DNA of 64,000 bases from Chytriomyces cf. hyalinus JEL632 (lineage: Eukaryota > Chytridiomycota > Chytridiomycetes > Chytridiales > Chytriomycetaceae): assembly GCA_025435555.1 (NCBI GenBank), contig JAIWWG010000105.1, forward strand, positions 32,768-96,767. The letters run 5' to 3'. Positions within the stretch are counted from its first letter, which is position 1. Every line of letters begins with the position of its first letter. The notes under the pieces were generated by a model that saw only the letters and a program-made list of their open reading frames with translations, did no database searches and was not told the DNA's origin. Made by a program: the position numbers and the translations under genes. Below, one piece after another: positions 21,039 to 61,807 of the stretch.

Positions 21039-21292
21039 CATAAAAAAAATACGTAAATAAAAAACAGTGCAAACCACAGTTTTGTTGACGAGAGTGGTAA
21101 TTTTTGCCTGTTTGATTTTGGCGGAAGTTCGCGGCAATCCCTCAACTTGTCAGATTTCATTGTCTTGAGATTAAAGCTCGAAGAATTCTGCCAGAGGCAA
21201 GGGGGGCGTCGCAACATGTTGAAATGCGTTGGTTTGGGACGAAAAGAGTTATCTTTAAACAAGGTTATAAATAATGCTAAAACTGGGGACTT

Positions 21293-21501
21293 TGTGACGT
21301 AAAGAACCTTGATTCCAGAACCTTCCCTTTTTCTGACTTCCCCAATTCCTACGTGTCAATTCTCTTATCATTTATTTCCATCTATTTCTTCAATATTCCA
21401 AACTCTCAATATAAAAGCGACCTTCCACTGATCACAATAAAGCAGCCTATCCTGATCTGATATTCTTTGACCTCTCCGGAATCTGAGCCCATTCCGTAAC
21501 A
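21293..21501 (+). mobile_element. Solo LTR-like element upstream of tRNA-Pro copy 1
   Basis: A 209-bp sequence begins TGTGACGT and ends CCGTAACA, giving imperfect terminal inverted repeats (TGTGAC/GTAACA). It contains ATATAAAAGCGACC and, about 25 bp on, AATAAAG, a promoter and poly(A) layout expected in an LTR. It is flanked by a perfect 5-bp direct repeat, GACTT, at 21288-21292 and 21502-21506. Only CGC separates the right repeat from the first base of the tRNA gene. Layout and ends resemble the minus-strand LTR at 61808-61999. Confidence 0.7.
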
Positions 21502-21509
21502 GACTTCGC

Positions 21510-21581
21510 GGCCTTATGGTCTAGTAGTATGATTCCTGCTTTGGGTGCAGGAGGTCCGGGGTTCAATTCCCCGTGAGGCCC
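21510..21581 (+). tRNA. tRNA-Pro: tRNA-Pro(UGG), copy 1
   Basis: This is a 72-nt cloverleaf. The acceptor GGCCTTA pairs with TGAGGCC, followed by discriminator C. The anticodon stem CCTGC/GCAGG encloses loop TTTGGGT with anticodon TGG. The T arm contains GGGGTTCAATTCCCC. There is no intron. The internal A and B boxes are intact, so Pol III expression does not depend on upstream sequence. The second copy at 42237 differs in the T loop (TTCAAAT). Confidence 0.95.
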
Positions 21582-21810
21582 ACATTTTCCCCCGAAACGA
21601 TAGTATTTTTCGATTTCCTCTGAAGTACCTCTGAAGATATTCGCTCATGAATCGCGCTTGCTGGCTCTGACAGAAATGTTTCTTTTCGAAAAGCGGGTGA
21701 AGTGGTCTGCCTTCACATGAAGTAGACGTGTATCCATCCACTGGTGGTCGAAACAGAGAATATTAAATTGCCAATGCTGGTTTTTTATATTATTTGATTT
21801 TTCCCTTTCA

Positions 21811-24511
21811 TCATTTCCGCTTGTGCTGCTGCCTCTTGTTTTCCCAATACATTTTAACTCTGTCACTTTCCTTCTTTTGCTGGCGAATGACTTTCCTGCG
21901 CACATTTTCATCAATACCCACTGCCTCCCAACCCCACCAATTATCTGAGCCCGACCATTTGGACTGCAGCATTTGCTTCACTTCATCCATGGCGTTTTGT
22001 GGTACTGGCGGTGGGCATAGCTCTTTCAAACGCTTGGCTGGGACCATGTCACCGTCCTGCGCGAGATCTCGTACACGGTCTACAAGGTTTGAGATATGTG
22101 TGAATGCGATGGGAGGCAGGTAGGTGGGGTCTTGTCGGAATATAGTGGAGGCTTCTAAAACTTCTAATGCAGATTCAACTTGATTTGTCCTGAGCAGGGG
22201 GTGTTCCACGATTTCAGTACTTTATCAGGAGAAGACGGATGTCATAACTACAAACCTTGCATGCCCTTTGATCATTGAAACAAAACCATCCCTCAACGCG
22301 TTTTTCCCGCGACCTTCCCGGACGCGTTTGGCTTCTTTTTCGCCCGCAGTTAACTTTCCATGTATAGCACTTTCAAGCATTTTTGTTTCCTGAAGTTGAT
22401 CCCAGGCCAGATATTCCGTCCATATTTGTGGGCCTCGTTCAACCATCAGCTTTTTATCTTTTGTCACGAGTTCGAGTGCAAGTTTGTAGGTATTTGCGGT
22501 TTTGGGTACTGGATTTGACAGACTCGTGTTCACGTTGATGAGTTTTGTTGTCGGTGTTGTTGTTGCACCCTCTCCAGGTGTGCTTTCATTTTTGCTCGCG
22601 TTTGCAATGGATGGATCCGACACATACATTTGATCATAGATTTTCATGGCCGTGGCAGCAGTGACAATGTTTCCCGGTACAGCACAAAAGACTCCCAAAT
22701 ACGCGTCCACAAGCTTACTTGATACCAGCTCGGGCCGTGTTTCAATCAGATCTCCCCAAATTCGTGATGCATCGGCAATGATGGCATATGGAGTTTTATC
22801 CGTGTTTCCGAGATGCAAATGCGACAAGGCGTGGTTCGCGGGGATCGGTTCAACAAAAATGGGGGATTCGCGCAGGGCTTGAGCTTCTTCTCTGATTGCA
22901 ATTTCGGATGCAGTTTCGATCATATCTAGACTCTCCAGATCTGCTTCAGGTGTTTCTGCTTCAGTTGTTTCGTTTGTAGGTTCGAGTTGTGGCGCAGGCA
23001 GAGACTCCTTCCGGATACGCCGTTGTAATCGTATGCAGAAACTTAGGGCCTCCAGCACACCTCGATGAATTGTTTCATCCAATTGAATTGATGAATCGCC
23101 GGTAGAAACTTTGTAAATCATCCAATTCCTGTTTACACATTGAATGTGTTTGTCAGTTTTCGACTCAATCTTGCCCAAAGCGTCCATCTTACCAAATAGA
23201 CCGCAATCTCGCAATATTGCCATTCTCGCCACAAGATCGAATCAACACTTTGCACGCGACGTTATTCACTTCCCATCCTGCATCCACCATTTGGTCAACA
23301 ATCGCCCACATTTCTTCGTGATAATCTGGCCGACTTCCCAATGCTTTCAAAAGAGCCGTGTAAGTGACTTCAGTCGCGACAAGGCCCGCGTCGTGCATTT
23401 CTTGAAATAAATCTAATGCTCGTTCTGCTTGCATATCGAGGGAACATGCATGAATCATTAAGCTGTAGCACGTTGAATCCGGGCTGCAGATTTCTCCGCG
23501 CATAAAGTCGAATGTTCGCCATGCGCGTTTAAGATCGTTGTTTTCCAAGCATCCTTTGATGAGCGATGTAAATATCTGAACGTTTGGATTGACGCCTGGA
23601 TGAAATCTGACCGTCAGATTGTTTGGAAACGATTTCTGCTTGTTTTCCTTTACCTTTCGTCTTCATTCCTTCATACACTGCGAATGCGCCCTTCAGATTT
23701 TTCGCATTGATACACGCTTTTATGAGAATGCTGTAAGAAGCAATGTCCGGTTGAAGGTTGGTATCTGTGCGATTTGTTTCTTGTTGACTGCCGAGATTCG
23801 ACGCCTCTGTTTCAACACACCAAAAACGTCAGCAGATTCAAGCGAAATAAAAGACGAGGTACCGTGGTTAAAGTATTTCGCGAATAGCCCCGCCGTGGCT
23901 TTATAGTCCCCTTTCGCAGCATACGCATCCATCAGAGCATTCACAGCTATGCAGTCAGGCTCCAACCCTTCTTCCGCAATCATATCAAACGCAGCTTGCG
24001 CCTCTTCGGTCCTCCCTAGTAATGCATTCATGCGAATAACTCGAGTAACGTCTTCGATGCGTACTTTGTCTTCTGCGAGATTGGAAACTGGTCTCGGCAA
24101 TCTCATCGCAGCACTTCCATTCGTGACAGGCGCAAACTGAGCAATAAAGTCTCCGACCACCTTTAATGCTACCCTAGATCCAGCGCTTCCCGATGCAATA
24201 CGTTTCTGCATGCGCAAACCGGGGTTTCCAGAGTCGCTCAGCAGTCGATGCAGGTCGTTTACCTGGCTTGATGATAGCCCAGATTGCGATTGAGAGTCCT
24301 TCCCGCTCATGAGTTCATCCACTACTGCCGTATTGTTTCGATTCCGCTTTGTCTCTGTGGGCGACTTTCGAGACTCTTTCAGCTGGCCGCGGAACTCTTT
24401 AAAGCTCGGGATTTTGAGATCCCGCACAAGTGATGGGTCCACACCGTAGCTACGAGCCTGCTGTGTGTGGACTGTCTGCCGCACCAGATGTACAATGCGG
24501 AGCAGATGCAT
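21811..24511 (-). CDS. Pentatricopeptide-repeat protein, mitochondrial
   Basis: A multi-exon minus-strand gene with stop at 21811. The ATG at 24511 opens a basic, acid-free leader (MHLLRIVHLVRQTVHTQQAR), a likely mitochondrial presequence; another ATG lies 17 codons upstream. Clear 35-residue repeats follow: VTRVIRMNALLGRTEEAQAA, PDCIAVNALMDAYAAKGDY, IASYSILIKACINAKNLKGA, VQIFTSLIKGCLENNDLKRA, STCYSLMIHACSLDMQAERA and VTYTALLKALGSRPDY. The C-terminal third is acidic and then basic, without repeats. PPR proteins bind organellar RNA one base per repeat; the RNA partner cannot be told from sequence. A motif TATTTATCGAC sits just before the start codon, as in the TFIIE-beta promoter. Confidence 0.85.
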
Positions 24512-24619
24512 GAGTCGATAAATATTACTTCGGTTTTTTTCAAAAAAGAAAGAAAGGCCCACTTGAGCGACTTTATTTTCAGCTCGTCTCCCACTTTCTC
24601 ACTCGCAACAACGCATGCA

Positions 24620-26303
24620 TCACTGCGATAGGAAGGTCTTCACGTCAAACTCCTTCTGGTTGGCTCCCTTGACAATCATCCCCTTCTCTGTTGCAATTGC
24701 GCTGATCAACTCAGCGGGAGTAACCTGAAGGAAAGGTATTGAGTCGCGCTTCGAGGTTAAATGGTCCCTTTTACTTGGCACTCACATCAAACGATGGGTT
24801 CCACACATCAATTCCCTTTGCAGCAATGTGCACAGTCGTTGTTGTCACTTCCTCGCCGTCATGCTCCTTCAAGTTGCCTTCGTCTTCGACCACTTGTCCA
24901 CGGATCTGAACAACCTCAATCCCTGGGCGTTGCTCCTTTTTTGGATCAAGTAATACACGTCAATATTACGGAGTCTTGGATAAAGGTTGTGGTGCATTAC
25001 AATTGGAATTTCAGCTCCAGATTTCAGGTTCAAGTCAATGGAAGTTGATGGCGCCGCAACAATGAATGGGACGCCGTGATACTTGGCAGCGATTGCCAGC
25101 TGGTATGTGCCGATCTTGTTGGCGGTGTCTCCGTTCGCAGTCACACTGGGCAATGATTGTTTCGTGCATCAGACGACACCAACGCGATCACTATGAAAAA
25201 CTCACCGGTCGGCACCAACAACAATAGCAGCAATATCTTTTTGCGCGAGCAAAGCGCTGACCATGGAGTCTGTTACGAGGGTTCCTGGGATTCCTTCAAA
25301 CACCAATTCATATGCTGTCAAACGCCCTCCTTGATTGTAAGGTCTGGTTTCCGTGCTAGTTAAGATAATAAAACCTTCAGTAACCTCCATGACTTAGCCG
25401 CAGAAGCATCAAGTTTTACCAGAAGCAACGGTCCAAGACCCCTTTCGAAAACAAATCCCTCACAATTCCCAACGCCGTTCCATGCCCAGCCGTGGCCAAA
25501 CTTCCCGTATTGCAGTGGGTCAACACACGCAACTTCTCGCCGCTCGATGATTTGCGGGATTTGATGATGTAATCTGCGCCAAAAGATCCAATTTGCTTGT
25601 TGTCCCACACGTCTCTCGCAAGCATGGCTTCGGCCTCGTGGAGGTACGCGTTGGCAACGGAGTCGGCGGTTGCGCCTGGAGCTAAGGCCGCCTTTGCGAC
25701 GAGTACGTCGAGACGGCCAGCGGCTTCGAACAAGTTGACAGCTGTTGGCCGGCTTGTGTAATTTTTTCAAGATTCTGTCTCCCCCAAAACCCGTTCACAA
25801 CAACAAGAACAACACTCACGATTCGCGAAGATGGGCAAGTGACTGATGAATGAACTTGGCAACTGCCTCGGCCGATTTGAAAGAAGCTGCCGTGTGTTTT
25901 GCATTCAACTCCACGCACAGGGCCAGGGCGGCAACGATGGCAATGGCGGGTGCTGTGATCAACGTTTAAAGTGCCATGGGTAAGATGCTGGGTGTCGCAT
26001 TCGCAGATTGTTGTCTGTTTGGCTTCTTGGGAATTCATTCGATAACGAACCTCCGCGCACTTTCATTGTGCGAATTACGTCGAAGCCATCCTGGACATTG
26101 TTGACGCTCTCGTAGACAGTCTCGAAGGGGAGAAGAAGCTGGTTGATGATACGCAGGGATCCTGTTGGTTGTTGGAGGTTGGTCAGACAGCGCGATCGCA
26201 TCCATCAGCCGATGCAGCTTCCAGTCATGCATGCCCTGTAGTAAAAGAGACACAAACCACGGGTGTAGTCGATGGCCTTGAGCGTCTTTTGCTGGCTGCT
26301 CAT
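24620..26303 (-). CDS. MRI1: Methylthioribose-1-phosphate isomerase
   Basis: Reads [16 protein letters not shown], then after an intron [20 protein letters not shown] and [18 protein letters not shown], all family hallmarks. The catalytic region has [20 protein letters not shown], with the active-site cysteine, and [10 protein letters not shown] with the catalytic aspartate, followed by [15 protein letters not shown] and [12 protein letters not shown]. The C-terminus is [20 protein letters not shown] and the stop is at 24620. It isomerises 5-methylthioribose-1-phosphate to methylthioribulose-1-phosphate in methionine salvage and is cytosolic. At least five introns are present, and all inferred junctions keep the family sequence in phase. 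It is divergent from CWF19L2, with 91 bp between the start codons. Confidence 0.94.
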
Positions 26304-26394
26304 GTTTTTAAACGAGTTTAATTGTGCACAATAATTCCAGGTTGTGCTCACTTGATAAAGGTGAATAATTCACAGAATATTTCAACAAATAATC

Positions 26395-28834
26395 ATGGGC
26401 AAAGAGAAGGACAAGAAGCACAAGAAGCACAAGAAGGAGAAGAAAAAGAAGCAGAGCAACGACAGCGACAGCGACGACAAAAGCGAATTTCCGCGTGCGA
26501 AAGCGACTGTGAACGCGGCTGTCGAGGATGAATGGGAGGAAGCACCGGCACCTGCCATCGAACCCCCTCCACCACCACCAGTAGCCGCAGCAGCTCCATC
26601 TCATGGCTGGATGTCCGTCCCGGAGTCCGCAGATCCCTTTGCCGATATCGGACTCACCATCAAGCGCACAGTTTCAGCAAAAGCAGCAGCGAAAGAAGAG
26701 GACCAAAAGCGAAGAGACGTAAGTTTGCCGTCTCAGAAGGGAAACCATTCTAATACCATCCGCATCCTTTTCCCTTGTTTTCGAAAACTTATTAAAAATA
26801 CCAAAAAGGACATCCGCAAAGAACGCGAACTCAACAAATCCTTTTTCGATCCCAACTTTTCCGCGCCAACCTCTTCCGCAGCTGCATTCGCCGAAACTCT
26901 ACCCCCCAAGAAGGAAACACAAGTCGTGTTCGGCGACTCGAAATCCAACTGGCGCATGATGCGCTTAAAGCGCTTGCAGGAACAAGCTTCTGATGATTCA
27001 TGCGATATTCAGGAACTTGCTATGGAGCGATGGGGGTCTTTGGAGGAGTTGAATCAGTTGCTGGAGGAGAGAGAGTTTCTTGACAAGCGGAGCGGAAAGC
27101 GTATCGAGAAATCGGGGCGGGGGACAGATGCTCCAGGCGGTTCATCGCGTGTGGAGAAATATGGGTCGGGTTTCCGTAAACCAGTTGTCGCGGATGATTA
27201 TGTCGATGAGTTTGGCAGGGAGAGACGCGACGATAAGAAGAAAGATGAGCGGAGCAGTGCCCACAAACATCATTCACGGTCCAACTTAAGTGCTGCATCA
27301 AGCACATCTCGAACTGTTCCTTCAGCGGCAACGGGGGGCGTGATGTCAAGCCAGCGAGCGGCATTTGATTCAAACAAACCCGTTCTCACAATGGACGAAC
27401 TCAACAAACTTAATGCTCGCATTTTGAAAAACAGTTTAATGGGCAAAGAAGACAAGGATTTGGTGGAAAAGTTTGAAACGGAAAGGGCAAAATACGAGGC
27501 TCATTCAGCAAACAACTCTGATTCGAAGCAGGTTTGTTTTACAGATTCCATCATTTCAAGACTGTTTTCTCATCCTCTTCAAAGGATGAAACTGTGATTG
27601 TTCCTACAATCGACAGTCGAGGCCAGCTTCAAGACATTGGCTCAGATGGCGCAGCCGTTCGCTTGCCTCCTGGGAATTCGAAACGAAAGCGCGAGGACCT
27701 ATCAGTATGTCGCACGAGTTGTAGTACCCCTTCCGAATCTCATGATACTTTTGAAACTGCGCAGGCTACACACGACTCTGATGGTCAGCGCGTAAAGTAC
27801 GCAGGTGAAACAGAAAAGGAAGTATCCATCAACGATCTGCTTCTGCAGGAAAAAATGAAATCTGGCGCAGATTATGACCTTGAAGTTGCGAACCGTATTA
27901 CGCGAGATGTAACGTATCGAGAAGACTTGGACTACATGGACGAAAAAGCAGACGATCTTGCCAAAAAGACGCAAGTCTCGGATTATTCAAAACGGCAAAA
28001 CGCGATTCATGGTAACTGCGGAAAAGAATACAACTCTCTCAGAAAGATTGACACGCTCTCCTCTTCAAAACAGATTACAAAAAAGCCAATGCTGCCCTTG
28101 AAAAATGTCTTCACTGCCCTCAAGAATCAACCGGCGTCCCCAAATCAGCCGTCATTGCCTCTGGAGCGCGCACTTACATCTGCCTCCCCACAAGCATCGA
28201 AATGGTCCCATTCCACTGCCAAATTGTTCCTCTCGCACACACACTCACAACACTCGAACTCGACGACGATGATTGGACAGAAATCCGCAATTTCATGAAA
28301 TGTCTGATTCAAATGAATTGGGAACGCGATCATGGATGCATATTTACGGAGCAGGTTGTCAACTTCAAGTGGCATAAACATACAGTGATTGAATGTGTGC
28401 CAGTGCCGCTTGGGAAGTTTGAGGACGCGCCTGCTTATTTCAAGGAAGCCATGATGGCATCGGAGGAAGAATGGTCGCAGCATAAAAAAATGATTGATAC
28501 CAGTAAGAACGGGTTTCGACGCAGGATGGTCAAGAATCTGCCTTACTTTCATGTCTGGTTTGAACCAAATAAGGGATGTGGGCACGTGATTGAAGATAGC
28601 CAGGAGTGGCCAGACTGGTTTGGCAGGGTGAGTTGATATGTCTCTTTTTTCTACCACTTGTCCAAACTGAGTTCATTTCCAATATGCATGCAGGAAGTTT
28701 TGGCGAGCATGATGGAGTTGAGTCCCGATCGGTGGCGAAAACCAAGGCGCGCGCAACTGGACGACGTGGAGCGACGAAGGGTTGGATTTATACGCGCTTT
28801 TGATAAATTTGATTGGACGAAAGGGCTGGGTTGA
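26395..28834 (+). CDS. CWF19L2: CWF19-like protein 2, spliceosome-associated
   Basis: Five exons (26395-26718, 26809-27531, 27585-28011, 28074-28627, 28694-28834) give 722 residues. The N-terminus is a lysine/histidine-rich tract. The middle is charged and disordered with RKERELNKSFFDPNF and EEREFLDKRSGK. The C-terminal CwfJ domains show EKCLHCPQE, GARTYICLP, CQIVPLAHTLTTLELDDDDW, EIRNFMKCLIQMNWERD, HTVIECVPVP, APAYFKEAMMASEEEWSQH, MVKNLPYFHVWF and GCGHVIED. The HIT-like histidines are present. Cwf19 proteins act in late spliceosome turnover with the debranching enzyme, in the nucleus. It is divergent from MRI1. Confidence 0.94.
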
Positions 28835-28936
28835 AAAGTGTATGTATAAATACAGCATCTTCTGAATATTTAGTTAATGCTCATGGTGTTGAGGTGAATC
28901 GATTGCGTGTTGTTCGTGGAGAAAGAGCGGCATTTA

Positions 28937-30025
28937 TTACTGCAACGAGGAGGACAGCAGACTTCGAGTACTTTCAAGCAGAGTTTTGAGTTCTCCCTCC
29001 TTCGCAGGGCCATGCGCACTCCAACGCACGGATCCACTTGCGTCCACCAAATGCACCCACCCAAGCAGTCTGTTCCCCATCCCAATTCTGTTTCTCTCTG
29101 AGGAAATGTCTCCCGTGTGAATCAAATAGTTGCCATGCATTTGAACAGGAACTTTTCGCCGAATCCAAGGCGTGAATAACGTCAAAGCCCATTTCTTTGC
29201 CCAGTCTTCTTCGACGTTGAGTTGAACGATTCCAACGGCCGGGTTATTGGAGAATTCTGTTTGGAAGGGTTGCAGATACGATTTGATGTGTGGTTCGCCC
29301 ATGGCAGTGAATGCGAACGTGACCAGCGATGCTCTTTTGCCTTTGATGAGAGTGTGGATATCTGTTTCAACCCCGCTCAGGGATTTTCCAGGGATATTTG
29401 GGACCAGCGGTGAGGTCTGGTGGTCCAATGCACATCAGGATATCAACGAAGCAACTGTTATAAACTCGACTACTCACCTGGCTCGGAGTCATTGCCTCCT
29501 TGGCAGTCCACAGCTTGTCTCCCTTTCGAGCAATCTCTTTCAAATCGTCAAACTGTCCCTTTGCACCAAACTCCTTCAACAGCGCCTGCCTCTCAAGCTC
29601 ATTCTTTTCCGAATCAAGGACTCCTGACAAGCCCGAACGCATGCGCATGGCAACGGGTCCCAACTTCGTCTTGAGTCCGGCGGCCTTACGTTCAAATTCG
29701 ACACGTTCGAGTTCTTTGATGCGTGCGTCTAGCTTTGCTTCGTACTTGAAGACGGGGTGCGCTGTTGGGGCAGTAGGGTTTTTTCTGTGACACAGCATGT
29801 ATGAGCAACTGAATACAAAACAAGCATCCACACTAGAAACAACTCTCACCGCATCTCTTCGATTGCTTCAGCTTCTCTCACCAGCTTTGTCTGGAAGCGC
29901 TGAAGAAGGGACAAGTTCCTGCTCTCGGGCGGAGGAGGGGGAGTGGGCGGCATCAGTGGCTTTGGGTCATCAGGTTTGGTGCTGAAGCGGCGTGCGCACG
30001 CGGATGAGAGCCGGGGTCGGATCAT
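28937..30025 (-). CDS. ATP10: ATP synthase assembly factor ATP10
   Basis: Three exons on minus. The start at 30025 gives MIRPRLSSACARRFSTKPDD, an arginine- and serine-rich mitochondrial presequence, followed by a proline run. The middle exon is charged and helical (KNPTAPTAHPVFKYEAKLDA). The last exon carries the Atp10 core: FPNIPGKSLSG, ASLVTFAFTAMGEPHIKSYL, VGIVQLNVEEDWAKKWAL, NRLLGWVHLVDASGSVRWSA and GPAKEGELKTLLE. Atp10 is an inner-membrane chaperone for subunit 6 of the F0 sector. The core has the thioredoxin-like style of the family. A CA microsatellite and U6 copy 2 lie just upstream. Confidence 0.9.
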
Positions 30026-30085
30026 GTGCTGTTCTGTTGGATTTTAAATAAATCATGGACGTGGACCATAAAAGAGAAGTTAATG

Positions 30086-30109
30086 ACACACGCACACATA
30101 CATACATAA

Positions 30110-30157
<48 letters not shown>

Positions 30158-30162
30158 ACACA
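30086..30162. repeat. (CA)n microsatellite
   Basis: An almost pure CA tract, with CATA interruptions at both edges, covers about 75 bp between the ATP10 start and U6 copy 2. Length could vary between strains. Confidence 0.95.
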
Positions 30163-30271
30163 TGGCTCGGAGCGAGCCCACAATAAGCCGTTACGGCGGG
30201 TGGGTATCCGCTATGGTAAACAGTCAACCAAGGGTGAAGTCCAACAACATCCCATCAACAGACAGACATCC

Positions 30272-30334
30272 AAAAATTTAACCGCCGAAGCGGCATCCAC
30301 TCAAGTTAAGCGTGTCATCCTTGCACAGGGAGCC

Positions 30335-30365
<31 letters not shown>

Positions 30366-30405
30366 CATATGTGTCACGCCGCAACCCACAAGGAGTTGGG
30401 CGGAC
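30272..30405 (-). ncRNA. U6: U6 spliceosomal snRNA, copy 2
   Basis: Read on the minus strand this is identical to copy 1 through the whole RNA as far as I can compare, including the ACGATACAGAG box, AGC triad, CAAGGATGACACGC and the 3' CCGC-TTCG-GCGG hairpin. Five T residues (30272-30276) follow. Similarity to copy 1 stops a few bases after the T run, so this duplicated unit is shorter on its 3' side than the one shared by copies 1 and 3. Confidence 0.92.
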
Positions 30406-30430
30406 GATTTCTGAAGAGTTTTTGGTCGCT

Positions 30431-30483
30431 ATTTATACCCTCTCCCGCTTTTGCAATACTGCGATTTTGGGACTGAAAAATGT
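30431..30483 (-). promoter_or_regulatory. U6 copy 2 promoter
   Basis: On minus, TATAAAT (30431-30437) sits at the same distance from U6 as in copy 1. The shared upstream block ACATTTTTCAGTCCC plus AAAATCGCAG ends at 30483. Beyond it the sequence is unrelated to the other copies. Confidence 0.55.
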
Positions 30484-30976
30484 GCCAGTTTGACTCAGCA
30501 TTGGATGCGCAGCCCATCTGTGCGCATCCATTGACCACAATTGCTCCTGTGGACGCGTTAGAGATCATGCCATACTCTGACATGAAATGAATACGTAGAC
30601 AGCAGGAGTGAGGTCTGCGGCATTAGGAATTATATCTGCTTGCTTAAGCCGCAGCACCAACGACATTGTGGGCCAAGCATGAACCTGATTGGCACGGCAA
30701 GAATCCAAGACAAGTATTAGCCATCAGGTGTTGTCCGGTTGACGGAAAATGAAGCGGGAGTCTTCTGTACCAGTAAGCCCCAACTATGACAAGAGTACTC
30801 AGAACTTGGTTCGGATCCCTCCAGCTGAAAAACACAATCCATGCCTTAATGCAAGCTCTGTTTCATCAGTGCAAGTTTATTCTGCAACCGTTACTCGCCC
30901 TCACACAACAAAAAGGGAGCTATCCCAAAGTGGACAGCCCAATTAATTACATTCCCCACATTTGATCAGTCGTTGT
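30484..30976. other. Intergenic, no feature found
   Basis: Between the U6 copy 2 promoter and the p23 stop codon I find no coherent reading frame, RNA or repeat. It presumably includes the p23 3' UTR. Confidence 0.5.
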
Positions 30977-32153: not shown

Positions 32154-32340
32154 GGCTTTCTGGTCGGTTTTATTTTTTGGTGAACGCTTTTCACGATTTC
32201 TTTGCACAGACAACGTTCTCAACCCTTCTTCGACATTCCATCTTGCGGCCCACTTCCCCATATTGCGACACCGCTTCGTTTTTATTTTTGCTATCTGGCA
32301 GGGTGAGTATTTCGTGCCATGCGATGTTTTCTGGTTTTTA

Positions 32341-33459
32341 TTATTTGAATGCGAGGCTGAGATCCACTCCCTCCAAATGCGTGTTTGTGATTTTGGCCTT
32401 CCTCCCTCGCGACTTTCCTTTTGTTTTGGTTTTCTGCAACAGTTGAAGTGCGCACGAGCCATCAGCAAAACGATGGAAGTGGTATTGTCACTTACCGTTG
32501 CTGTGGGTTTCCCGGAAGCCATTTCCGTAACGGATAATCCAGCTAAATTTGTGGATAGATAATCGGTCAGAGACGGTCGCTATTAAAGCAAGAATGCGAA
32601 TAAAGCGAAACCTTGTGCAAGAACTCTTGACACTTCATCGTCATTTGGAACAGTGACTTTATCCCAGTATGCTTTAAATTCCGTTGATGACGGGTATTTC
32701 CTGGGAACAGCTGGTAGCCATTGCGTTTAACCATGAAGCGAAATGAGTTGGTGAATGAGACGCGCGCTTCGAAAAGAAATCAAGGTTTCTTGTCAAACCA
32801 TCCTGCAAACTGTTGAAATAGACCGTTTTGGGCGTTCCATCTTTCGTCCGTAACACGAGAATCTGACCTTCCGCCTCAAGTTCCTGCGCAATTCAAGTTG
32901 CATTCAAGTTGCATTGCGAGAAATGATGAGCTCGGGACCTCAACCACCACACACAAAAAATAACAAGCAAATGAGAAGGGCACCTTGATGGCATCAATCA
33001 CGCCAGAATAGCCGGCTTTCACAGCTTTCACGTCCAAACCGCCCACCTGGACATTTGCTTTGAGTAAATCCAGCAGCTCCGTCTTTGACCGAATCGCAAA
33101 ATCATGCTGATGACAACAAGGGGATATAGAGGCGAGTCAGCAATGATTATCAATGGTTCGTCGATGGTTGGTTGATGATCGGGTGATGGATGGAGTTGGC
33201 GCATTCGAGAGTCCTGGTGCGGCCACACCCAGTATAAAATAGACACTCTGCTTACCTTGTACCACATTGTTTCCGCCTTTTCGTCGTAGCAGATCTTTGC
33301 GCAGTCCTTCCACAGCTTGATAAAGTCGGCTGACGAGAGAATGTCCGTGTTGAGCTTCGCAGATACGTCGCTGAATTTGACCTGGCCCTCTGTTGCCTTC
33401 AAATGCGAGAGCATCGAGGTGAGCAGCACCTGCATGCGCGCCTTGTTGCTGCCGCTCAT
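32341..33459 (-). CDS. TFA2: Transcription factor IIE, beta subunit
   Basis: The minus-strand exons read MSGSNKARMQVLLTSMLSHL at the start (33459). Then come TDILSSADFIKLWKDCAKIC and HDFAIRSKTELLDLLKANVQ with GGLDVKAVKAGYSGVIDAIK, which form the tandem winged helices of TFIIE-beta. ELEAEGQILVLRTKDGTPKT follows, then EFKAYWDKVTVPNDDEV, AGLSVTEMASGKP and the closing RGRKAKITNTHLEGVDL, the family's basic tail. TFIIE recruits and regulates TFIIH at Pol II promoters. The conserved tail lies in a separate last exon ending at 32341. It is divergent from FIP1 with 74 bp between starts. Confidence 0.9.
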
Positions 33460-33533
33460 GCTTTAGCTTTGAATTCGGCTGGTTATGTTTACAAGTCGAT
33501 AAATATTTAGTTGCGAAGTCGATAAATACCGGC
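33460..33533. promoter_or_regulatory. Divergent promoter TFIIE-beta/FIP1 with tandem GTCGATAAATA
   Basis: The 74 bp between the two start codons hold two direct copies of AAGTCGATAAATA about 22 bp apart, with little else of note. The same motif, inverted, lies immediately before the PPR gene start near 24512-24525, and a related TTCGATAAATTG lies before YIF1. It looks like a core promoter element; function is inferred. Confidence 0.45.
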
Positions 33534-35820
33534 ATGGACGACAACGATCTCCTCAACGCAAGCAATGAGAACGATGCCGACGAGGGCGAGTACGAGGAGG
33601 ACTCTGATGATGTGAGGCGGAAACTGCTCGCTTACTTCTGCGAAATAAAAGCACCGTGTTTACTCGTCCTCTCACCGTATCTCCAAAAACGGACCTGTCC
33701 CACATCTCGCGCATTGATTTCAGGACATTGAGATTGTCATGGATGCTGCGGTAGAGGCACCCAAGTGAGTGCGATGCCGCTACTCGAACCCCAACCCAAC
33801 ACTTAACAACAACTCGCAATGTACAGAGCCGCACCAATCTCGATTAAGCCTATGGGTAAATTTCCCTTACTCTCTCTATTCACCTGTTATCGCACTAGAA
33901 CAAACCCGATTCTGTCACCGAAAAAGGCGCTTCGGACCCATCCGCGACCACACAGCAATCCTCCACAACCGCCGCCGCCGCCACAGCAGCAGCATCGGGA
34001 GTGCCCACCAAAGCTGGAGCAATCGACATTAACCTCGTCGGTCAAATTGAAGGGAAGGATTTGTTTGACCTTGATTTGGATGGAGTCGAAGACAAGCCGT
34101 GGCGGAAACCTGGAGCGGACATCACAGATTATTTCAACTTTGGGTTCAACGAAGTCAGTTGGCGCGCGTACTGCAACAAGCAAAAAAGCATGCGTGAAGA
34201 GGCTCTGATGCAGAAACGGATTCATGTAACTTTTGGATTGTCTCTTCAGAATTCGACCGTTCGTCAACCGGTATTGTCTTTCTTTTGGAAACAGGTCATT
34301 GAGGACATGGGTAGTGATCAGCAGTTTTTTGGGGGCATGATGGGCATGCAGCAGCAAAAATACCAACGCATGCCACAGCAACAGCAGTTCAATCCTATGC
34401 AAATGCATATGATGCAGCAACAGCAACGAGGGATGGGTAGTGGCATCGCTCCCCCGCCAGGAATGGGAGGAGGACCCATGGGAATGGGCATGGGTATGGG
34501 CATGCCTCCACCTCAGATTTTACCCCCAGGAATGGGTCCACCACCGCCAGGAATGGGCGTTTCGGGACCACCTGGTATGGGCCCGCCTCCGATGGCTGGA
34601 ATGGGTGCACCGCCAGGCATGATTCCCCCACCGGGTGGGTTGGGACCTCCTCCTGGAGGCGCAGATTTGAATTCGTTTGGAAAACGGCCGCGAGGTTTAG
34701 ATGACTCAAATGTTAAAGTGATTGCGGGAGATGAACCCCCAGGAATGGACACGGGGTAAGCAGTTTGATGAAGTCTGATTTTTTTGTGTTCCGAACACCA
34801 TTTTTACCTGCCCACTTGTATTAGGCGAATGGATTCGGGAGGACCGAGGAATGACGGCAGATTCCAACCAAATGACTTTGGTGGCCCGAGTAAGACGCAC
34901 TCATCCTTTTCTTATTTTCCATTTGCTTGGAGACTCATCACCGGTGGTATTTCGGAACAGTGGGTCCTCCAGGTGGAGGCGGATTTCAAAATCAGGTACG
35001 CATTTCCTTCCATTCCAAAAAAGGGAAAAGCAAAAAGACGCGTTGTTCTCACTTTAAACGCTGACTTCTCTCCAATTTTTTTGAAGGGATTCCAGCAGCA
35101 AAGTATGTTTCGACAACAACCACAACAGCGAGGGATGCCGCCAATGCGCGGACGTGGAATGCCCCCTGGCGGTGGTGGAATGTACCAAGGCGATCGGTAT
35201 TAGTTCAACCTTTTTGCGATCCCATCTTTATGCGCTTGCTCAAATGCAAACATCATCCGTCATCTTTTCAAGGGGATTTTACGGTGCAGGTGGTGCCGGT
35301 TAGTTTTAAATTTTTTGTTCAGATCAAGGTCACCCATAAATTGACGAGCGCGTCATGCTTTGCAGATCATGGAGATGGTATTCCTTTAGGTGGACCCAGG
35401 CCATCCCATGCGTCCCCTCCGCAGGGTGGATTTCGTGGTGGACATCAAGGAGGAGGAGGTCGTGGGAATGATGGTTTTTATGATCGAGGAGGCGGCGCAG
35501 GTGGAGTTGGCGGACGAGACGACCGGTACTTTGATGTAAGATGCTTTGCTACTTTCTTTATTTCCCGGCTTCGAATAACCCTCCTTGTCACTTATTTTTT
35601 ATTTTCACAGGATAAGAGGGGAGGTCCAGCGGACGGGCGCTGGCAGGATGATCGGGGGCAGTGGGATCGTGATCGCGATGATGGCGCTGGTGGTGCTGGC
35701 GGTGGTGCGGGCCGATGGGAAGATCAAGGGAGAGGCGGTGGTGGTTGGGGTGGGCCAGGCGGCGGACCCAGAGGAGACCCGCGCAACAAAAGAATGGATG
35801 ACAAGCGGCGCTATGATTGA
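33534..35820 (+). CDS. FIP1: Pre-mRNA 3'-end processing factor FIP1
   Basis: The acidic N-terminus ([20 protein letters not shown], 33534-33611) and the short exon 33723-33763 ([13 protein letters not shown]) precede the diagnostic Fip1 motif in the exon starting near 33900: [19 protein letters not shown] followed by [20 protein letters not shown]. Next come a long Q/M/G/P-rich stretch with repeated PGMG units, and RGG-type exons ending with [14 protein letters not shown]. Fip1 tethers poly(A) polymerase to the cleavage/polyadenylation complex and binds U-rich RNA through such arginine-rich tails. One small exon (33827-33855) leaves the wrong phase for the next exon when joined with GT-AG rules, so the structure between 33763 and 33900 is unsettled. 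Confidence 0.88.
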
Positions 35821-36132
35821 GATGCATCAAAAGCGATGCGGCGGGTGAATAAAATCACACGTGCATAAGATCCAGTTTTTGAATAAATTCAAAGTTTGAA
35901 GGGGAAAAAACAGACACTTTTGATGCAGGCGGACAGTGGAGACAGGGACACCAAGGACACAAGAACGGGATTAGCAGCATGGAGGACTGGTGGAAGGAGC
36001 GGGAGGGACGCAGAGAAGCGCATCGCGAAGGAGGGCACGGGCATGAAGACGAACGGGCTGGATAGGGACAAGAGGACCGGGATGGCCGAAGGGGAAACGG
36101 ACACCATTGAGCAGACTCTGTCGCTAGAATGC

Positions 36133-39100
36133 ATGACTCCGCCGTGTCTTTTCAGATCGGGAAACTCGCTTGACTTTAGCCAGTCTGAATCATGGACACA
36201 ACTTGGGCACCACGCAACAGCCTCGCACCCTTCGAAATCAATTGCATTCGTTCTTTATCAGCGAATTCTGATGCGAGTTCTATCGAGTGGGAATGAGAGT
36301 TCGGATGCACTGTTTTCTCTTCTTTCCACAAGTCCGAGTTCGGTGGCTGATTCGCGGCTCAATTTATTCTTCGACAATTTGCTGTTCATCAACCACGCCG
36401 ACCCAGTTGCTCAAGTTCTGCATTCGATAGTGCATCCAGACTCTATTGCATCCATTGCGGCATCAAAGGCTTCAGCCGCACTCTCGGACCAGCTCGCCCA
36501 CCTGACTATCCGAGTCTTATTTTTGTCACATATCTCTCACTCCAACAACGGACTCGCAACTATCCTTGCCTTCACACAGCAAACTGCGTTTGTCTCCTCG
36601 CGCGGATTACTCTTCAAACCCACTTTGTGTGCTCATTTACCAAACATTGTATCACATGTCGTGAGGAACTGTGTTCGAAACAATCATCTGCCCGTGTATG
36701 TACGTTTGGAAGCTCTGAAACTTGCGCATGCTTGCCTGGATCTTGCAAACAAAATCAAAAACACTGTTTATGATGTGAATATCGCTGGGGTGCTTGTGGC
36801 ATCATCCAAACGCCGCTTATCGCCAACATGTGCCGGAAGCGAAGCTGTACAGAAAAAGGGACCTATTTATTCACTCAGTCAAGCGGTTGTGCGTGCTTAC
36901 GTTTGTGCGAAACTGGGTATCAAAGCGGGAGAGCATCGGACGTCTCCGCAAATTGCCCAATCGGCATCAGACTCCCAGCTATTTGTTGCTCTTTCAAGGC
37001 TTTCGGAACTGAGTTTTTCAATATTGAAGGATTTGATGTCCATGGTCACGTTCGATAGTCCAAGCCTGGATCCGTACCTCCACCATGCGAAAATCGTGGA
37101 AAGACGGCCGCTTGATACCGAAGCAGCAGTGACTGTCACAGAGGAAAAGGTTTTTGTTTTGCCACGCTTTTCTCAGAAACTCTCACAAACTTTGGACGTG
37201 ATTCTGAATGCGGGCGAGCAAGATTGCGGCAACTACTCTGAATATATCGAAGCACTCGCGAATCTGATGCCACCGAGGCCATTCAATTCAGAGAACGAAT
37301 GGATTATCTGCCAATACTGGACTCAAGAGCTTGAAATTGTGAAACCAAAGGTTATTTCTCTATTTCGAATTCTCGGCGCGGGGGGATCTTCAGCAGATCG
37401 GACACTCTCTGCAGTCACGAATTCTTTTTTGGAATCTATTTTATGTCTGACACAAGGGTCGCAGTTTTGTCGGGAGCTTGTTGAAGCCATAGTTGATGAG
37501 GCCCTTCGCTGCATCGATGGTCGCGATTTATTTATGGGACGAGCAGATGTTTTGAGAGGTCGCCTGGAAATCATTTGCTCGCTTTTTGACGGTTGCGGCG
37601 ATTTTGGAGCATCAGTTGCGACTCGGATATTGTCAGCAATGAGGGCGTCCTTGAATCAAAACAGCCCAGGCCTGGACGCTGTTCGGCAGTACTTTCGTTT
37701 CGCTCGCTCAGTCATTAGGTGAGCAAAACACTCTGGCGCATTCCCATGTTGTGAAATTGAACCTGATTTGGGTTTCACTCAACAGGTTTTGTTTGCAGGG
37801 TTCAACTCCGACCGATGCAAACTTGATCCGAGAGATTAGCGGCATTTTCGACGACACTTTAAAGGACTCGCAGCTATTCAGCCTGGACTTCGATTTGGAT
37901 CTCGCCTTTCTTTTGCCTTGTATTACGTCAAGTGGCGCCTATCGCCCAACTCCGTCAGTTTTAACTTGGTTACGTGACGCGCTTTCTTCAGCTACTATAA
38001 ATCTTTTCAAGCAATCAGAGTCGCACGCGGATGTTGAAGAGCGGATGCGAATGGTAGCGAAGCTGGTGTTGGTTGTGTTTGGAGCTGGAGCCGTACAAGA
38101 GCTGAGAAACGACTTGCAAACTGTGCGTGTTCAATTGGAAAACTCAGATTTTATGGATGGACTTGGTCTCGCGAATGAAGGAGCTAGATTGAGGGATATG
38201 GTGGAGCTGTTAAAGAACCTTCGTGGTGACACGGTCATTTGTGGTTCCCAGGTCTATGCGGGTACGTTTTTATACCTTCCAAAAATTTGCCTTGGCTGAT
38301 CAAAAGAGTATGTTTCGAAACAGCTGTCACTCCTGTTTTTGATATGCATGATAAGAGCGGCAAGGATTCTCAAGCTTTCAAACAACCGCAAGCGCCGCCG
38401 TCACCACCATCTGAGACGTTTATACGGGAAACCATCGCAATGCTACAAATGCCAGCTATACAATCAAACAGCCGCACACATGCATCTGGAGTCTCCGATA
38501 CCAAAGACCCTCCCGTTGTCGTCTTCAAACAATACGAGAAAAATTCCTTCCGGGCAATGAGCGCAGCAATACCCATCCCTTCGAACTCATATTCGCAAGA
38601 TGTTGGATTAATATTTCAAGGGGCAACGCCAGGAATGCATGCGAGCGCGGCAACGGCAATGTCTCGAACCCTGTCAAACACGTCGCGTGCGCCGTCTGTT
38701 CACGTGGACACATTCTTGAGCCACGGGCCAGACGCGTACCAGCAACAGTCGGTCAACATGCATGCGGCGGCGGCTGCTGCTGCGGCACAGGCTCAAGCTC
38801 AGGCGCAGGCGGTGGCACAGTCCTCTGCTGCAGCCAGTGCTTTGCATCGACAGCAGTTTCTGCAGCAGCAACAGCAACAACAGCAACAACAACAAGCCCA
38901 GTTTTCAATGCTGCAGCAGCAACATCATTTGCATCAGCAGCGGACAATGATGTCCCGGAGCGTCGCTGGCAACACTGTTGAAACCGCGAGACTTCCAAGC
39001 CCTTACCAGCAGGTTTCGCCACTCATGAACACGTTCCAAGGATACTCACCGGTACTCGGACGGAACATGGTCGGAAGTGTACACCCTTCTGTTCAGCAGT

Positions 39101-39309
39101 ATGACTACCAAAACACAATTGCTATGCAAGGCTTTCAAGCAGCAGATCGGAGCTTCTCTCAAAGCAGTCAGCCATTGCATCCGACTGGCTATACGAACGA
39201 TGGAATGATGGTTGGACTTCACGCAGCTATTCCGATGCAGGTGCAACAGCAACCACAGCTGTATAGAATGCAATATGATGCTCGATTTTATTCGGGCGAA
39301 GAGCAATGA
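36133..39309 (+). CDS. Large helical, Q-rich protein of unknown function
   Basis: Three exons (36133-37718, 37786-38261, 38324-39309) read in phase to 1015 residues. The frame is open back to 35896, but that part (Asp/Arg/Gly-rich) looks non-coding. Residues 1-690 are mostly alpha-helical, like HEAT-type repeats (LNLFFDNLLFINHADPVAQV, LEALKLAHACLDLANKIKN, GRLEIICSLFDGCGDFG). The last third is disordered, with alanine runs, a Q tract of about 13 residues encoded near 38863-38900, and many Met/Gln. This resembles large Mediator or CCR4-NOT scaffold subunits in style, but no family motif is recognised and I do not assign one. The true start may be spliced from upstream. Confidence 0.7.
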
Positions 39310-39600
39310 GCGGTTTTACTTTTCTATTTTCAGTATTCCTCAGAGGCTCGCTTGGATCATTTTTCAGGGGTCCAGCATTTGCAATAAAAAAAAAGGGGTA
39401 TGATTCTAGGGCGTGAAGAAAGGGGCAATCCAACGATCACAACAAACATCGCACCTTCGCGCAGCAGCCCCGCCTGAGAGATATTTACGGAAGAAACGGC
39501 TCTGCCAGCGTTAAAGTTCTTGAACACGTCTGCCTGACTCCAATGAAAGGCATGGGTCGGGGCTGTGTTTTCAGAGTAAAAAGATCACGCAAAAAAATAA

Positions 39601-41693
39601 ATGGACAGTCCCACCAAAGCGGTCCACGACATTGCCACTCAGTACATTGCCGCACTGGAGGATAAGCTTGAAACCAATGCTAAGCTCAGGGCGGCGTACG
39701 TGATCTTCCGGCGTACCGAGGAAAAGTGACACGCAGCAAAAACAGAAGTAGAGGCTTTATCCAGCGAAGCACTACTGCTTAAACAAAGGCTGGAGGCACG
39801 ACAGACAGGCATTGGGCAATTAGAGCTATTAGAGCATCAAAACAAGGCCTTGACGGAGGAGCTGGCGGCCCTCCGCGCCAAAAGTGCAGCTGGCGTTGTG
39901 AACAGGGGTAAGTGCCGTCAAGGAAAACACCCCTGTAATACCTCTGCTCATGCTGTAACCCGCTATTAAAAAGTGTTGATGCTTTTCTAACACTGCAACC
40001 ATCTGTCTGCGCAGGTGAACCGGCCGGGTTGGGGTCTGTTAATGGCTCAGCGCAAAATATTCGTGCTGGAAGTGAAAGTGGCAGTACTAAGCGAGACACC
40101 CCGGACCACGCTCTCACCGGAAAGAAAAGTTCCAAGCGCTTTAAACAGGATGACTTCACTTCTTTAGCGGCGCCATCAATCAGTCCCAGTGGTGGCAAAC
40201 CCGCCTTAGCACTGTCCCACATGAGCGACCCAGCAGTGTCCGCCGACGTCAAAACTCATGTCATCAAATCATCCACCAATGAGGAAGAAGTACAGTGTCG
40301 CTACTGCCTCGGGCCCATCCCTCGCAGACATCAAAGCAGATGGATTCAGCACATTGTCAACTGCGATGCCGCTCCAGACACGGCCAAACGCGTGCTCTCC
40401 TCACCCCATGCATACACCTTGATTGAGGGCCGTGGAACTCCGTCGGTTATCATCGACGAACATGTCACGAAGCAGGGCTCAGGACGAACCCGGACCGTAC
40501 ACTGCAACTATTGCAGCGTTATCATCAACTCTGAAAAGCGAAAAGATTGGGAGAGACACATGTACTCCAAGTGTGCTCGTATCCCCTTATCTGTCAAACA
40601 AGCTTTTGAGAACGCAAAGGTGGCCCACACAACGAAAACCGCGACCACACCCAGCGTTGTCAACGATACAAAAACACCTGAAGTGACGCGCTCAAGAACC
40701 GCGTCCAGCGAAGGCGCGATAAAACCTTTGGTTTTGAAGCTTCCTCCACCGCCAAAATCATCAACTCCCGTCAGCATGTCCCCTCCCAAGTTTGACGATG
40801 ACTTGGCAGAACCCTTGCAATATCCCACTGAGCCGCCCGAATTCTTACCAGACGGAACTCGCAATACGCTGCGCTTCCGTGCCTGGGTTGACATTATCCG
40901 ATACCAGCGTCCAAACCACGTTGTTGTGAATGCAAGCCGGCTTAAACTGACCACCTTTAAAAGAAACTACAAGTTTCCAGTGGTTGGTGTTGTTTTTCAC
41001 TTTTGTTCTGATTTCGTATTCTGAAAGTCTTTCAAAACTCACAGGTTCGCCTCATGCCAGAAACGGGCTTCAGCAAATTTTCGAGTGGCTGCTTTGCGAT
41101 CCCCGAACACATGCACAAAGTATTCCTCTCCCACTTTGATGAGGAGCCCTCCGGCAAGAAACCAATTGCAGATGTCTCGCCGCCGATAAAAATGTCCAAC
41201 GAGGTTGAAAGCACTGTCAGCAATGATCATAAAGCACGAAATGAAGTCAGGCCGGAATCTCCTCTCGGCCGTGACCCCATCGCGAGTGACAGCTTGGATT
41301 CATCGTTAAAACTCAATGGCTCGAATCTGCACAGCGAAAAGAAACCCGTCTCATCAAAGAATATCAACGGAACCCGTTACGTCAAGTATGCCTCGTTTTG
41401 TTACTCTCTTTCTTTTTCTCCACCGTTCTAGCTCTCACACTTTGAATCTCAGCGTCATCCGAGAAATAATGCCAGACTTTCCAACTATCCCCGCCGACTC
41501 TCGAAAAGCAGTCAAGAGAGGTGTTCGACTATTTCTCGAAGCCGAGCTAAAGGATAAATTTTCCGACTGCGTGATTGTGAAGGGCGGAGGAACCATGTAC
41601 ATGATCCCAGATGAGCTGATGGACGCGTTCAAGGATTGGGCTTTTGAAGAACTGTCGAGATGTTTTCCAGAAAAGGCAGTCATGCGACCATGA
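39601..41693 (+). pseudogene. Two-zinc-knuckle protein, copy 2, with in-frame stop in first exon
   Basis: This is a paralogue of 18929-21038 with the same four-exon plan (39601-39907, 40015-40982, 41045-41385, 41453-41693) and the same intron phases. The coiled-coil start (MDSPTKAVHDIATQYIAALE) is followed at codon 43 by TGA (39727-39729), where copy 1 reads through. No intron of sensible size removes it. Downstream, everything is well kept: CRYC...WIQHIVNC, CNYC...WERHMYSKC, FPTEPPEFLPDGT-like and AWVDIIRYQRP blocks, and the C-terminal domain (DSRKAVKRGVRLFLEAEL, VIVKGGGTMYMIPDELMDAF). So it is either a very recent nonsense mutation, a sequencing error, or a gene with an alternative start. 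Conservation of the rest suggests recent function. Confidence 0.7.
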
Positions 41694-41939
41694 CGATGGT
41701 TTTAGGATGTTTGCAGTTTCGCATTGCATTGAAATAATGAACCAATAAAGAAAATGTTGTACAGGACTGACTGGGACAGCTGGGACTGTTACGCTACCTG
41801 AACGAAGCAGAAAGAAATGCATTGGATATCTGGAGGCAGCTGGCGCTTCTCCTGGACCAGCTATCAAAATAAAATAGTCCCCTGTTTACAGCGTGGTTGA
41901 AGAAAATTGCAATATAGATACATCAAATTGTAGAAGTCT

Positions 41940-42228
41940 TGTTACGTAATCTACTGGATTACGTTGACGTACTTCAAAGAATGCGCAGCAAAAAGTCCTC
42001 ATCAACTAAATTTCCCACGTTTCAGAAACCCGCTCGTTATTTTGAACCAATTCCAACACACCAAAAATACCATTTTCCAACTGTTTCACTTTGTGATTAG
42101 TTACCAGGAACTCCAGTCTCTCCACAACTCATTTACTACTCTCTATCTCTCTCCTGCACGAAAGCAGTCCAAGTCCAGCCTCTGAATAGTCAAGAAGTCA
42201 GTTGCACGAGTCGACCTATTTTCTAATA
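41940..42228 (+). mobile_element. Solo LTR-like element upstream of tRNA-Pro copy 2
   Basis: A 289-bp sequence begins TGTTACGTAATC and ends CTAATA. It is flanked by a perfect 5-bp direct repeat, AGTCT (six if AAGTCT is counted), at 41935-41939 and 42229-42233. Again just CGC separates the right repeat from the tRNA. The 3' part (GTCCA..TC..AGCCT..GAATAGTCAA) resembles 61195-61490, so it belongs to a second, longer LTR family than the one next to tRNA-Pro copy 1. The terminal inverted repeat is weak; the target duplication is the main support. Confidence 0.6.
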
Positions 42229-42236
42229 AGTCTCGC

Positions 42237-42308
42237 GGCCTTATGGTCTAGTAGTATGATTCCTGCTTTGGGTGCAGGAGGTCCGGGGTTCAAATCCCCG
42301 TGAGGCCC
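42237..42308 (+). tRNA. tRNA-Pro: tRNA-Pro(UGG), copy 2
   Basis: Identical to copy 1 except in the T loop (GGTTCAAATCC instead of GGTTCAATTCC). The acceptor, D, anticodon and T stems are all intact and the anticodon is TGG. It lies 544 bp downstream of the second zinc-knuckle gene, just as copy 1 lies 472 bp downstream of the first. Confidence 0.95.
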
Positions 42309-43321: not shown

Positions 43322-43324
<3 letters not shown>

Positions 43325-61490: not shown

Positions 61491-61807
61491 AAAGAATGTT
61501 GCGGAAATAGTCAGGAGCTCGATTGCAGCTTCAAGACTAAGAGAGTTTAGAGAGTTATTGAGAGACTGAAGTTAATTGAATCAAGAGCCGGTTTAAATAG
61601 CCTTTGTGGCAAATGTAAGAAAGACAACAGTGGCACTTGAAAGACACGAAATAGCAATAACGGGGGCACCTTTGATGAAAGGAGTGGTGTCTGGGAAGTG
61701 TTAGAGTGTTTGGAATTGCCTTTTAGTGATTTTTGTGTCTGTGGGATGAATCGGAGCTGTAAATCTTGAAGTACATGATTTAATTAAATAGATTACGTTG
61801 CAATGTC
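61491..61807. other. Intergenic between LTR-like sequences
   Basis: AT-rich, with several GAGAGTTTAGAGAG-like purine stretches. No gene found. Confidence 0.4.

Follow-up and report, generated by a model that had tools for sequence, protein, structure and literature searches.

Retrotransposon long terminal repeats inserted a few base pairs upstream of tRNA genes in the chytrid Chytriomyces cf. hyalinus JEL632

Two tRNA-Pro(UGG) genes are the only tRNAs that ARAGORN reports in a 64,000-nucleotide stretch of contig JAIWWG010000105.1 of the chytrid Chytriomyces cf. hyalinus JEL632 (we call the whole stretch the window and its contig C8), and each is immediately preceded by a solo long terminal repeat (LTR). 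The locus raises the question of whether these LTRs represent one inherited insertion or two and, if two, what brings retrotransposons to the same few bases before a tRNA gene. A preliminary description of the window held that each LTR has its own 5-bp target duplication, followed by CGC and then the first tRNA base; sequence reading confirms this to the base (Table 1). The LTR at site 1, of a family that we call LTR1, is 99.5-100% identical to LTRs of two elements that retain both LTRs (C188:251960-256878 and C59:43706-49120); the C188 element has Ty3/Gypsy domains. The LTR at site 2, of family LTR2, terminates in TA, not CA, and a search of the host's own genome (37.8 Mb in 242 contigs) found at least 45 matching pieces, including itself.

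The gene-plus-tRNA block is duplicated (20795-21016 versus 41450-41671, 77%), so it was necessary to test whether the two insertions share their ancestry. BLAST comparison of the two LTRs gave only short matches at chance level, with no alignment beyond the tips. With its LTR removed, site 2 aligns straight through to a paralogous locus on contig C241 (563 identities in 639 aligned bases). Site 1 aligns to another C241 locus (387 in 456, with numerous gaps), and both paralogues are without the LTR. Since the paralogous tRNA-Pro genes on C241 (L001 and L011) have homologous flanks on both sides and lack the LTR, we conclude that there were two separate insertions, not one that was inherited. 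The preliminary description had proposed exactly this, and descent of both loci from a shared insertion, the outcome that would have spoken against it, does not hold: the LTRs are not alignable and belong to different families, the duplications differ and the C241 paralogues are LTR-free.

The genes directly upstream of the two tRNA-Pro genes (20795-21016 and 41450-41671) are themselves paralogous and have no assigned function; four relatives were found, all in Chytriomyces. The window also holds three U6 small nuclear RNA genes, at 18198-18312 (+), 30272-30385 (-) and 43795-43909 (+). All six reported U6 genes lie on C8 and C241, where tRNA-Pro genes are interspersed among them in blocks that have been duplicated and rearranged.

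It was predicted from the window that LTR ends would form a sharp peak near tRNA starts throughout the genome. We compiled three samples, and the peak is present in each of them. There are at least five LTR families in the genome, the fifth recognized by eye; for the four families LTR1-4 we used 147 matches, which are the candidates scored and hence lower bounds. The first sample consisted of 55 loci picked by tRNA similarity alone, namely 25 loci from a tRNA-Pro search and 30 of 63 Rfam matches, these 63 being the scored part of 1,887 first-look candidates. Upstream sequence is shared with another of the 55 loci in 32 cases and with none in 23. The nearest shared upstream stretch ends 0-9 nt from the tRNA in 16 of the 55 loci (two of them the window sites), 10-14 nt away in none, and 15 nt or more away in 16. 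On the 3' side, 26 loci share sequence, and the boundary lies within 9 nt in nine, each time with a locus of the same isotype, as is expected for gene duplications.

The second sample used only the coordinates of the 147 LTR matches and of 88 tRNAs. Seventeen LTRs lie at most 60 bp from a tRNA 5' end, with gaps of 7 nt (two), 8 (three), 9 (six), 10 (four), 11 (one) and 36 (one), i.e., 16 of 17 at 7-11 nt, and none of the 147 lies within 60 bp of the 3' end of any of the 88 tRNAs. The third sample was chosen from the LTR side, and comprised 146 flanks (18,952 bp) of 91 of the 147 LTRs, nearly all picked regardless of tRNAs. These flanks contain 25 tRNAs of 13 isotypes, versus an expectation of about 0.27 that is calculated from approximately 540 tRNA genes (801 B-box matches minus 261 in a control). 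All 25 have their 5' end towards the element. In 23 of them the gap is 6-16 nt, and six of the seven gaps exceeding 10 nt become 8-10 nt once the alignment is carried on to the end of the LTR. For two of the 25 the choice was not blind (window site 1, and a locus on C223 whose tRNA was known beforehand), and five elements with a known tRNA side were entered by their far end only, which lowers the count. When tRNA-chosen loci are added (175 flanks, 106 LTRs), all 37 tRNAs point their 5' end at the element, and the LTR is in the tRNA's sense orientation in 22 cases and antisense in 15. Random placement of the LTRs, which the preliminary description had named as the contrary outcome, thus does not hold in the sampled genome. 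A de novo scan for a duplication plus TG...CA near 56 tRNAs, now superseded, gave 11 matches in 10 loci, eight of them at offsets of 2-5 bp, with a control rate of 0.4% per position; it misses elements longer than 700 bp, and at least two of these eight (L014 and L022) join the right offset to a wrong far end.

Elements with two LTRs allow the insertion point to be read at both ends. Among 29 same-family LTR pairs of 4.3-7.5 kb, we examined the ends of 26 and added one whose 5' LTR was taken from its locus; C172:44596, C224:133461 and C64:26716 are not among these 27. Identical 5-bp duplications flank 24 of the 27 (e.g., AGGAT on both sides at C187). For 18 of these 24, the target is a tRNA recognized by ARAGORN or Rfam (by Rfam only at C169), and the duplication lies 2-5 bp before it. 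As to the other six, one is the second element in a stack, three lie in one tRNA-like repeat, the target on C70 is a tRNA-like sequence with A and B boxes, and that at C173:259735, where Rfam does not recognize a tRNA, has a B box only (the latter two by eye). Solo LTRs have matching duplications in 11 of 14 cases, which brings all elements together to 35 of 41. The duplicated 5-mer ends 2-5 bp before the mature tRNA, mostly 3-4 bp, although in some cases the tRNA start given by ARAGORN is 1 bp away from that given by Rfam; a spacing of exactly 3 bp, as first described, is therefore right for both tRNA-Pro genes but not for the genome as a whole. The duplicated 5-mers vary between sites, so no cut motif is seen. 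At one LTR3 pair (C112:259390-266640; L131 and L132), a primer site follows the right LTR, as in a tandem LTR-element-LTR-element array.

At some loci, elements are stacked. Before a tRNA-Arg gene (C188:617865-623658), two LTR3 insertions of opposite orientation are separated and flanked by three copies of ATGTG. A tRNA-Val gene on C224 is preceded by a row of LTR3, LTR4 and LTR2 elements in which TCAAC occurs three times, once next to the tRNA and once at each of the two junctions beyond; another sequence stands on the outer side of LTR2. Stacked pairs of this kind occur on C65, C23, C173, C187 and C213, and where an element lies directly against another LTR, the 5-mers seen at its two ends include CTTCG, GTTTC, ATGTC, AGGAT and GCTCA. 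On C166 and at C188:251960 the second cut is apparently shifted by one base. The commonest length of an LTR-LTR junction is exactly 5 bp, which was found in five of the 14 junctions with both ends complete. If the site is measured from the gene, every insertion should duplicate the same 5 bp, as these stacks show. Moreover, because the site remains usable after the upstream DNA has turned into LTR, the signal lies in the gene. From the geometry of the stacks, we infer that the element on the tRNA side is the youngest.

We read the interior of one two-LTR element of family LTR1 (L081). In this copy, Pfam finds, in three pieces, the Ty3/Gypsy domain order of gag, protease, reverse transcriptase, RNase H and integrase: Retrotrans_gag, gag-asp_proteas (just under the cut-off), RVP_2, RVT_1, RT_RNaseH_2 and, in the last piece, Integrase_H2C2, rve (just under the cut-off) and SH3_Tf2-1. 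Other features of Ty3/Gypsy LTR elements are also present, i.e., TG...CA LTRs, a tRNA primer site, a polypurine tract (by eye) and 5-bp duplications. The primer site, TGGTAGCATCGG, begins two bases past the 5' LTR, and is complementary to the 3' end of a sequence with seven exact copies, of which the two checked are tRNA-Met genes. This tRNA-Met is probably the initiator, the tRNA that primes Ty3.

Integrase matches are present in many elements (at least 98 matches, many of them fragments, at 51-100% identity, with 92 of 125 candidates scored), and the best solved relative of the integrase is that of Ty3 (7q5b, E-value 1.2e-44). The stretch following the SH3 domain gives a match to the chromodomain PF00385 that is below threshold in all four integrases compared (16.7-18.8 bits versus a cut-off of 25.1). 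Its cage positions, which we presume to correspond to those of HP1, read R, W and H instead of Y, W and Y/F in an alignment made by eye, so that two of the three are changed. A low-confidence AlphaFold model has a beta-beta-beta-helix arrangement in this stretch, and the best Foldseek match of this poor model is again 7q5b. On these sequence comparisons, the integrase seems to carry a decayed, cage-less chromodomain, as in Ty3.

One target is not a tRNA gene but a repeat; a copy of it lies at the right edge of the window, and the insertions that hit it are elsewhere in the genome. An 850-bp repeat, itself located inside an LTR4 element, contains a stretch at approximately 62420-62473 with an A box and a B box that is tRNA-like by inspection, and in which Rfam recognizes no tRNA. 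At least 37 near-complete copies of the repeat occur in the genome, including the window copy (40 of 177 candidates scored). In other copies, six elements from four families interrupt the repeat at a single point, and cut 3 bp (C73), 5 bp (C236), 4 bp (C219), 3 bp (C59, where only the left end fits), 3 bp (C172) and 3 bp (C200) before position 1, which is defined as the base given by an A box starting at position 8. By its sequence, the repeat appears to resemble a Pol III (RNA polymerase III) promoter without being a tRNA gene, and insertion at a fixed point in it speaks for a Pol III promoter, and against tRNA sequence, as the thing that is recognized. Short fungal elements with tRNA-like LTRs, called Helenus, are already known from the description in PMC10886601, and the repeat shares with them its TG...CA ends, 5-bp duplication and A/B-box-like sequence. 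It differs in having no internal terminal repeat: within 62060-62960 we found no direct repeat or internal terminal repeat, and so no two-LTR Helenus structure. The repeat is possibly a solo LTR or Helenus-like.

Next to this LTR4 element are two further LTRs of a third stack (Table 1). The LTR of the fifth family is separated from the LTR4 LTR by 5 bp (ATGTC, 61803-61807), and its other flank is not ATGTC. Elsewhere in the window there is a CT-rich simple repeat (43227-43400), and a Pfam scan of seven other open reading frames of the window found nothing.

Table 1. Positions in the window of the insertions and repeats discussed in the text
Feature	Position	Strand	Basis
Site 1: target duplication GACTT, distal copy	21288..21292	+	sequence reading
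Site 1: solo LTR, family LTR1, 209 bp, TGTGACG...CGTAACA (TG...CA), in tRNA sense	21293..21501	+	
Site 1: target duplication GACTT, tRNA-side copy	21502..21506	+	sequence reading
Site 1: spacer CGC, 3 bp, from duplication to tRNA	21507..21509	+	
Site 1: tRNA-Pro(UGG) gene	21510..21581	+	ARAGORN
Site 2: target duplication AGTCT, distal copy	41935..41939	+	sequence reading
Site 2: solo LTR, family LTR2, 289 bp, TGTTACG...CTAATA, in tRNA sense	41940..42228	+	
Site 2: target duplication AGTCT, tRNA-side copy	42229..42233	+	sequence reading
Site 2: spacer CGC, 3 bp	42234..42236	+	
Site 2: tRNA-Pro(UGG) gene	42237..42308	+	ARAGORN
Right edge: decayed LTR2-type LTR, outer member of third stack	61195..61491	+	BLAST 74% over 74 bp; ends by eye
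Right edge: LTR of fifth family	61497..61802	-	by inspection; tail common by eye with LTR following LTR1 at C59
Right edge: 3' LTR of LTR4 element that runs off the contig end	61808..61999	-	99% identity to LTR4
850-bp repeat, TG...CA, 5-bp duplication GAGTG, inside the LTR4 element	62087..62936	+	ends by inspection
Integrase fragments of the LTR4 element	62938..64000	-	own-genome integrase search, C8:95705-96767

We consider it highly likely, with a probability of roughly 0.9, that the integrase docks on the Pol III initiation complex in the manner of Ty3 and Tj1. Docking on a Pol III factor, for which we infer TFIIIB or TFIIIC, is well supported by the near-constant offset before tRNA genes of 13 isotypes, by nearly the same offset before the A-box-like sequence of a non-tRNA repeat, and by its retention after an older element has replaced the upstream DNA. 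Under this mechanism, tRNA-Met would probably prime the reverse transcription of the Ty3/Gypsy elements, whose insertion produces 5-bp target duplications. The duplicated 5 bp end 2-5 bp before base 1 of the mature tRNA, close to the Pol III start. The integrase would most likely dock through its C-terminal SH3 domain and decayed chromodomain, whose part in targeting is suggested by the likeness to Ty3, on TFIIIB (TBP-Brf1). TFIIIC would position TFIIIB from the internal A and B boxes, and the cut would be fixed whatever the local sequence. With the distance measured from the gene, a new element would slip between the tRNA and the previous element, copying the same 5 bp, and elements would stack with the youngest adjoining the tRNA.

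The alternative that survives best is that the dock is some other Pol III component, either TFIIIC alone or, as for Ty1, Pol III itself. Position data alone cannot name the partner, and the B-box-only target at C173:259735 would suit TFIIIC. However, we regard this as unlikely, given that the narrow window at the start site is Ty3-like, whereas Ty1, which uses Pol III subunits, is described as spreading over about 1 kb (PMC5911963), and given that the integrase has a Ty3-type SH3 domain and a chromodomain seemingly without a cage.

We find it very improbable that the integrase is sequence-specific and recognizes a DNA motif of tRNA genes in place of a protein complex. At a fixed distance downstream, the inspected targets do show sequence resembling an A box, a B box or both. 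However, the duplicated 5-mers vary by site, tRNAs of 13 isotypes are used, and the offset persists in stacks where an older LTR has replaced the upstream DNA. A variant of this idea, in which a DNA-binding domain would read the B box 50 bp away, is conceivable. Slighter still are the chances that elements insert widely and persist only just upstream of tRNA genes because the genome is compact. While harmful insertions are argued to be purged from gene-dense genomes (PMC5006619), selection gives no 2-5 bp window, no reuse of the same 5 bp and no restriction to the 5' side (25 of 25), and would not make insertions fall at the corresponding point in a mobile repeat, of which there are at least 37 near-complete copies. 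Finally, the idea that a single ancestral insertion gave rise to both LTRs of the window, as the gene-plus-tRNA block with its truly duplicated flanks was copied, is already contradicted by the unalignable LTRs, the differing duplications and the LTR-free tRNA loci on C241, and we give it practically no credence.

Several observations weigh against docking on the Pol III complex, or at least do not fit it readily. In the sample chosen from the LTR side, which leaves out 56 of the 147 LTR matches, no tRNA was called within 130 bp of a tested flank for 66 of the 91 LTRs; many, not each, of the 66 can be put down to stacking, to the far end of a two-LTR element, to a tRNA-like repeat or to a tRNA that was missed. 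At a minimum of five loci (L003, L045, L051, C64 and C190), LTR-like sequence, in some cases decayed or cut short, ends 26-36 bp from the tRNA. Matching duplications are lacking in the C59 and C112 pairs and in three of the 14 solo LTRs, and at C188:256883 the duplication matches in four of five bases, which is explained by a later insertion one base over. U6 genes are transcribed by Pol III and thus possible targets, but none of the six U6 loci matches LTR1-4; with their upstream TATA-like sequence, they may be poor or harmful targets. The Rfam 5S model reported no 5S gene in the genome, possibly owing to the limit of 47 candidates scored or to the absence of such genes from the assembly. Lastly, the AlphaFold model is poor (predicted local distance difference test 59.6, predicted template-modelling score 0.34), and its fold match is a hint only.

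The review consulted here documents LTR elements that target Pol III genes in ascomycete yeasts and in social amoebae, and its Ty3/Gypsy cases include Ty3, Ty3p, Tj1, Beta/Tca8, Tyl3, Ylt1, Tyl6, DGLT-A and Skipper-2 (PMC5911963). The review makes no use of the word chytrid, and there was no chytrid case among the papers listed by searches of an open-access library that lacks most subscription papers and all preprints. Ty3/Tj1-style targeting is now seen in Chytridiomycota, with natural evidence that is unusually rich; the type of targeting is itself already known.

The chytrid elements resemble Ty3 of Saccharomyces cerevisiae in the order of their Ty3/Gypsy domains, in making 5-bp duplications at a narrow site immediately before tRNA genes, in inserting in both orientations (PMC5911963) and, apparently, in having a chromodomain that lacks an aromatic cage (PMC8632968). 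In the Ty3 structure described in the latter paper, the cage-less chromodomain contacts Brf1 and the SH3 domain contacts TBP. They differ in that the host is a chytrid in which several families coexist, and in that on the tRNA side the LTR mostly stops 7-10 bp short of the mature tRNA, as compared with approximately 12-15 bp for Ty3 (PMC5006619), the figure used here in place of the 16-19 bp given in the preliminary description. The initial impression that insertion is closer than that of Ty3 is thus correct, but it is not unprecedented, since Tj1 of Schizosaccharomyces japonicus, also Ty3/Gypsy, is placed at 5-11 bp (PMC4600332), about the chytrid distance. Unlike the chytrid elements with their tRNA-Met primer site, Tj1 is self-primed, and its Pol III insertions have one orientation, as opposed to both here. 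Going by their description, Tyl3, Ylt1 and Tyl6 of Yarrowia and Beta/Tca8 of Candida are similar in being Ty3/Gypsy elements located a few bp before tRNA genes (PMC5911963). DGLT-A and Skipper-2 of Dictyostelium are likewise tRNA-targeting Ty3/Gypsy elements, the latter with a diverged chromodomain (PMC5006619, PMC5911963), while DGLT-A differs in inserting at 13-33 bp.

One could go further, and suppose both that Ty3-type docking (SH3 and a cage-less chromodomain on TBP-Brf1) was inherited in common by Ascomycota and Chytridiomycota, which would make it very old in fungi, and that the Pol III promoter in the mobile repeat is a decoy landing pad that spares real tRNA genes. We offer this combination tentatively, as an idea that is rather doubtful as it stands. 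What the findings do indicate is that targeting known from yeasts extends to a fungus only distantly related to them. With several families phased to the same few bp, this chytrid offers dozens of insertions that occurred independently in nature, and its stacks should record the order of insertion. The Pol III promoter-like target that is not a tRNA separates recognition of the promoter from recognition of tRNA sequence, and integrases with a decayed chromodomain make the proposed link between losing histone binding and gaining TFIIIB docking testable in another lineage.

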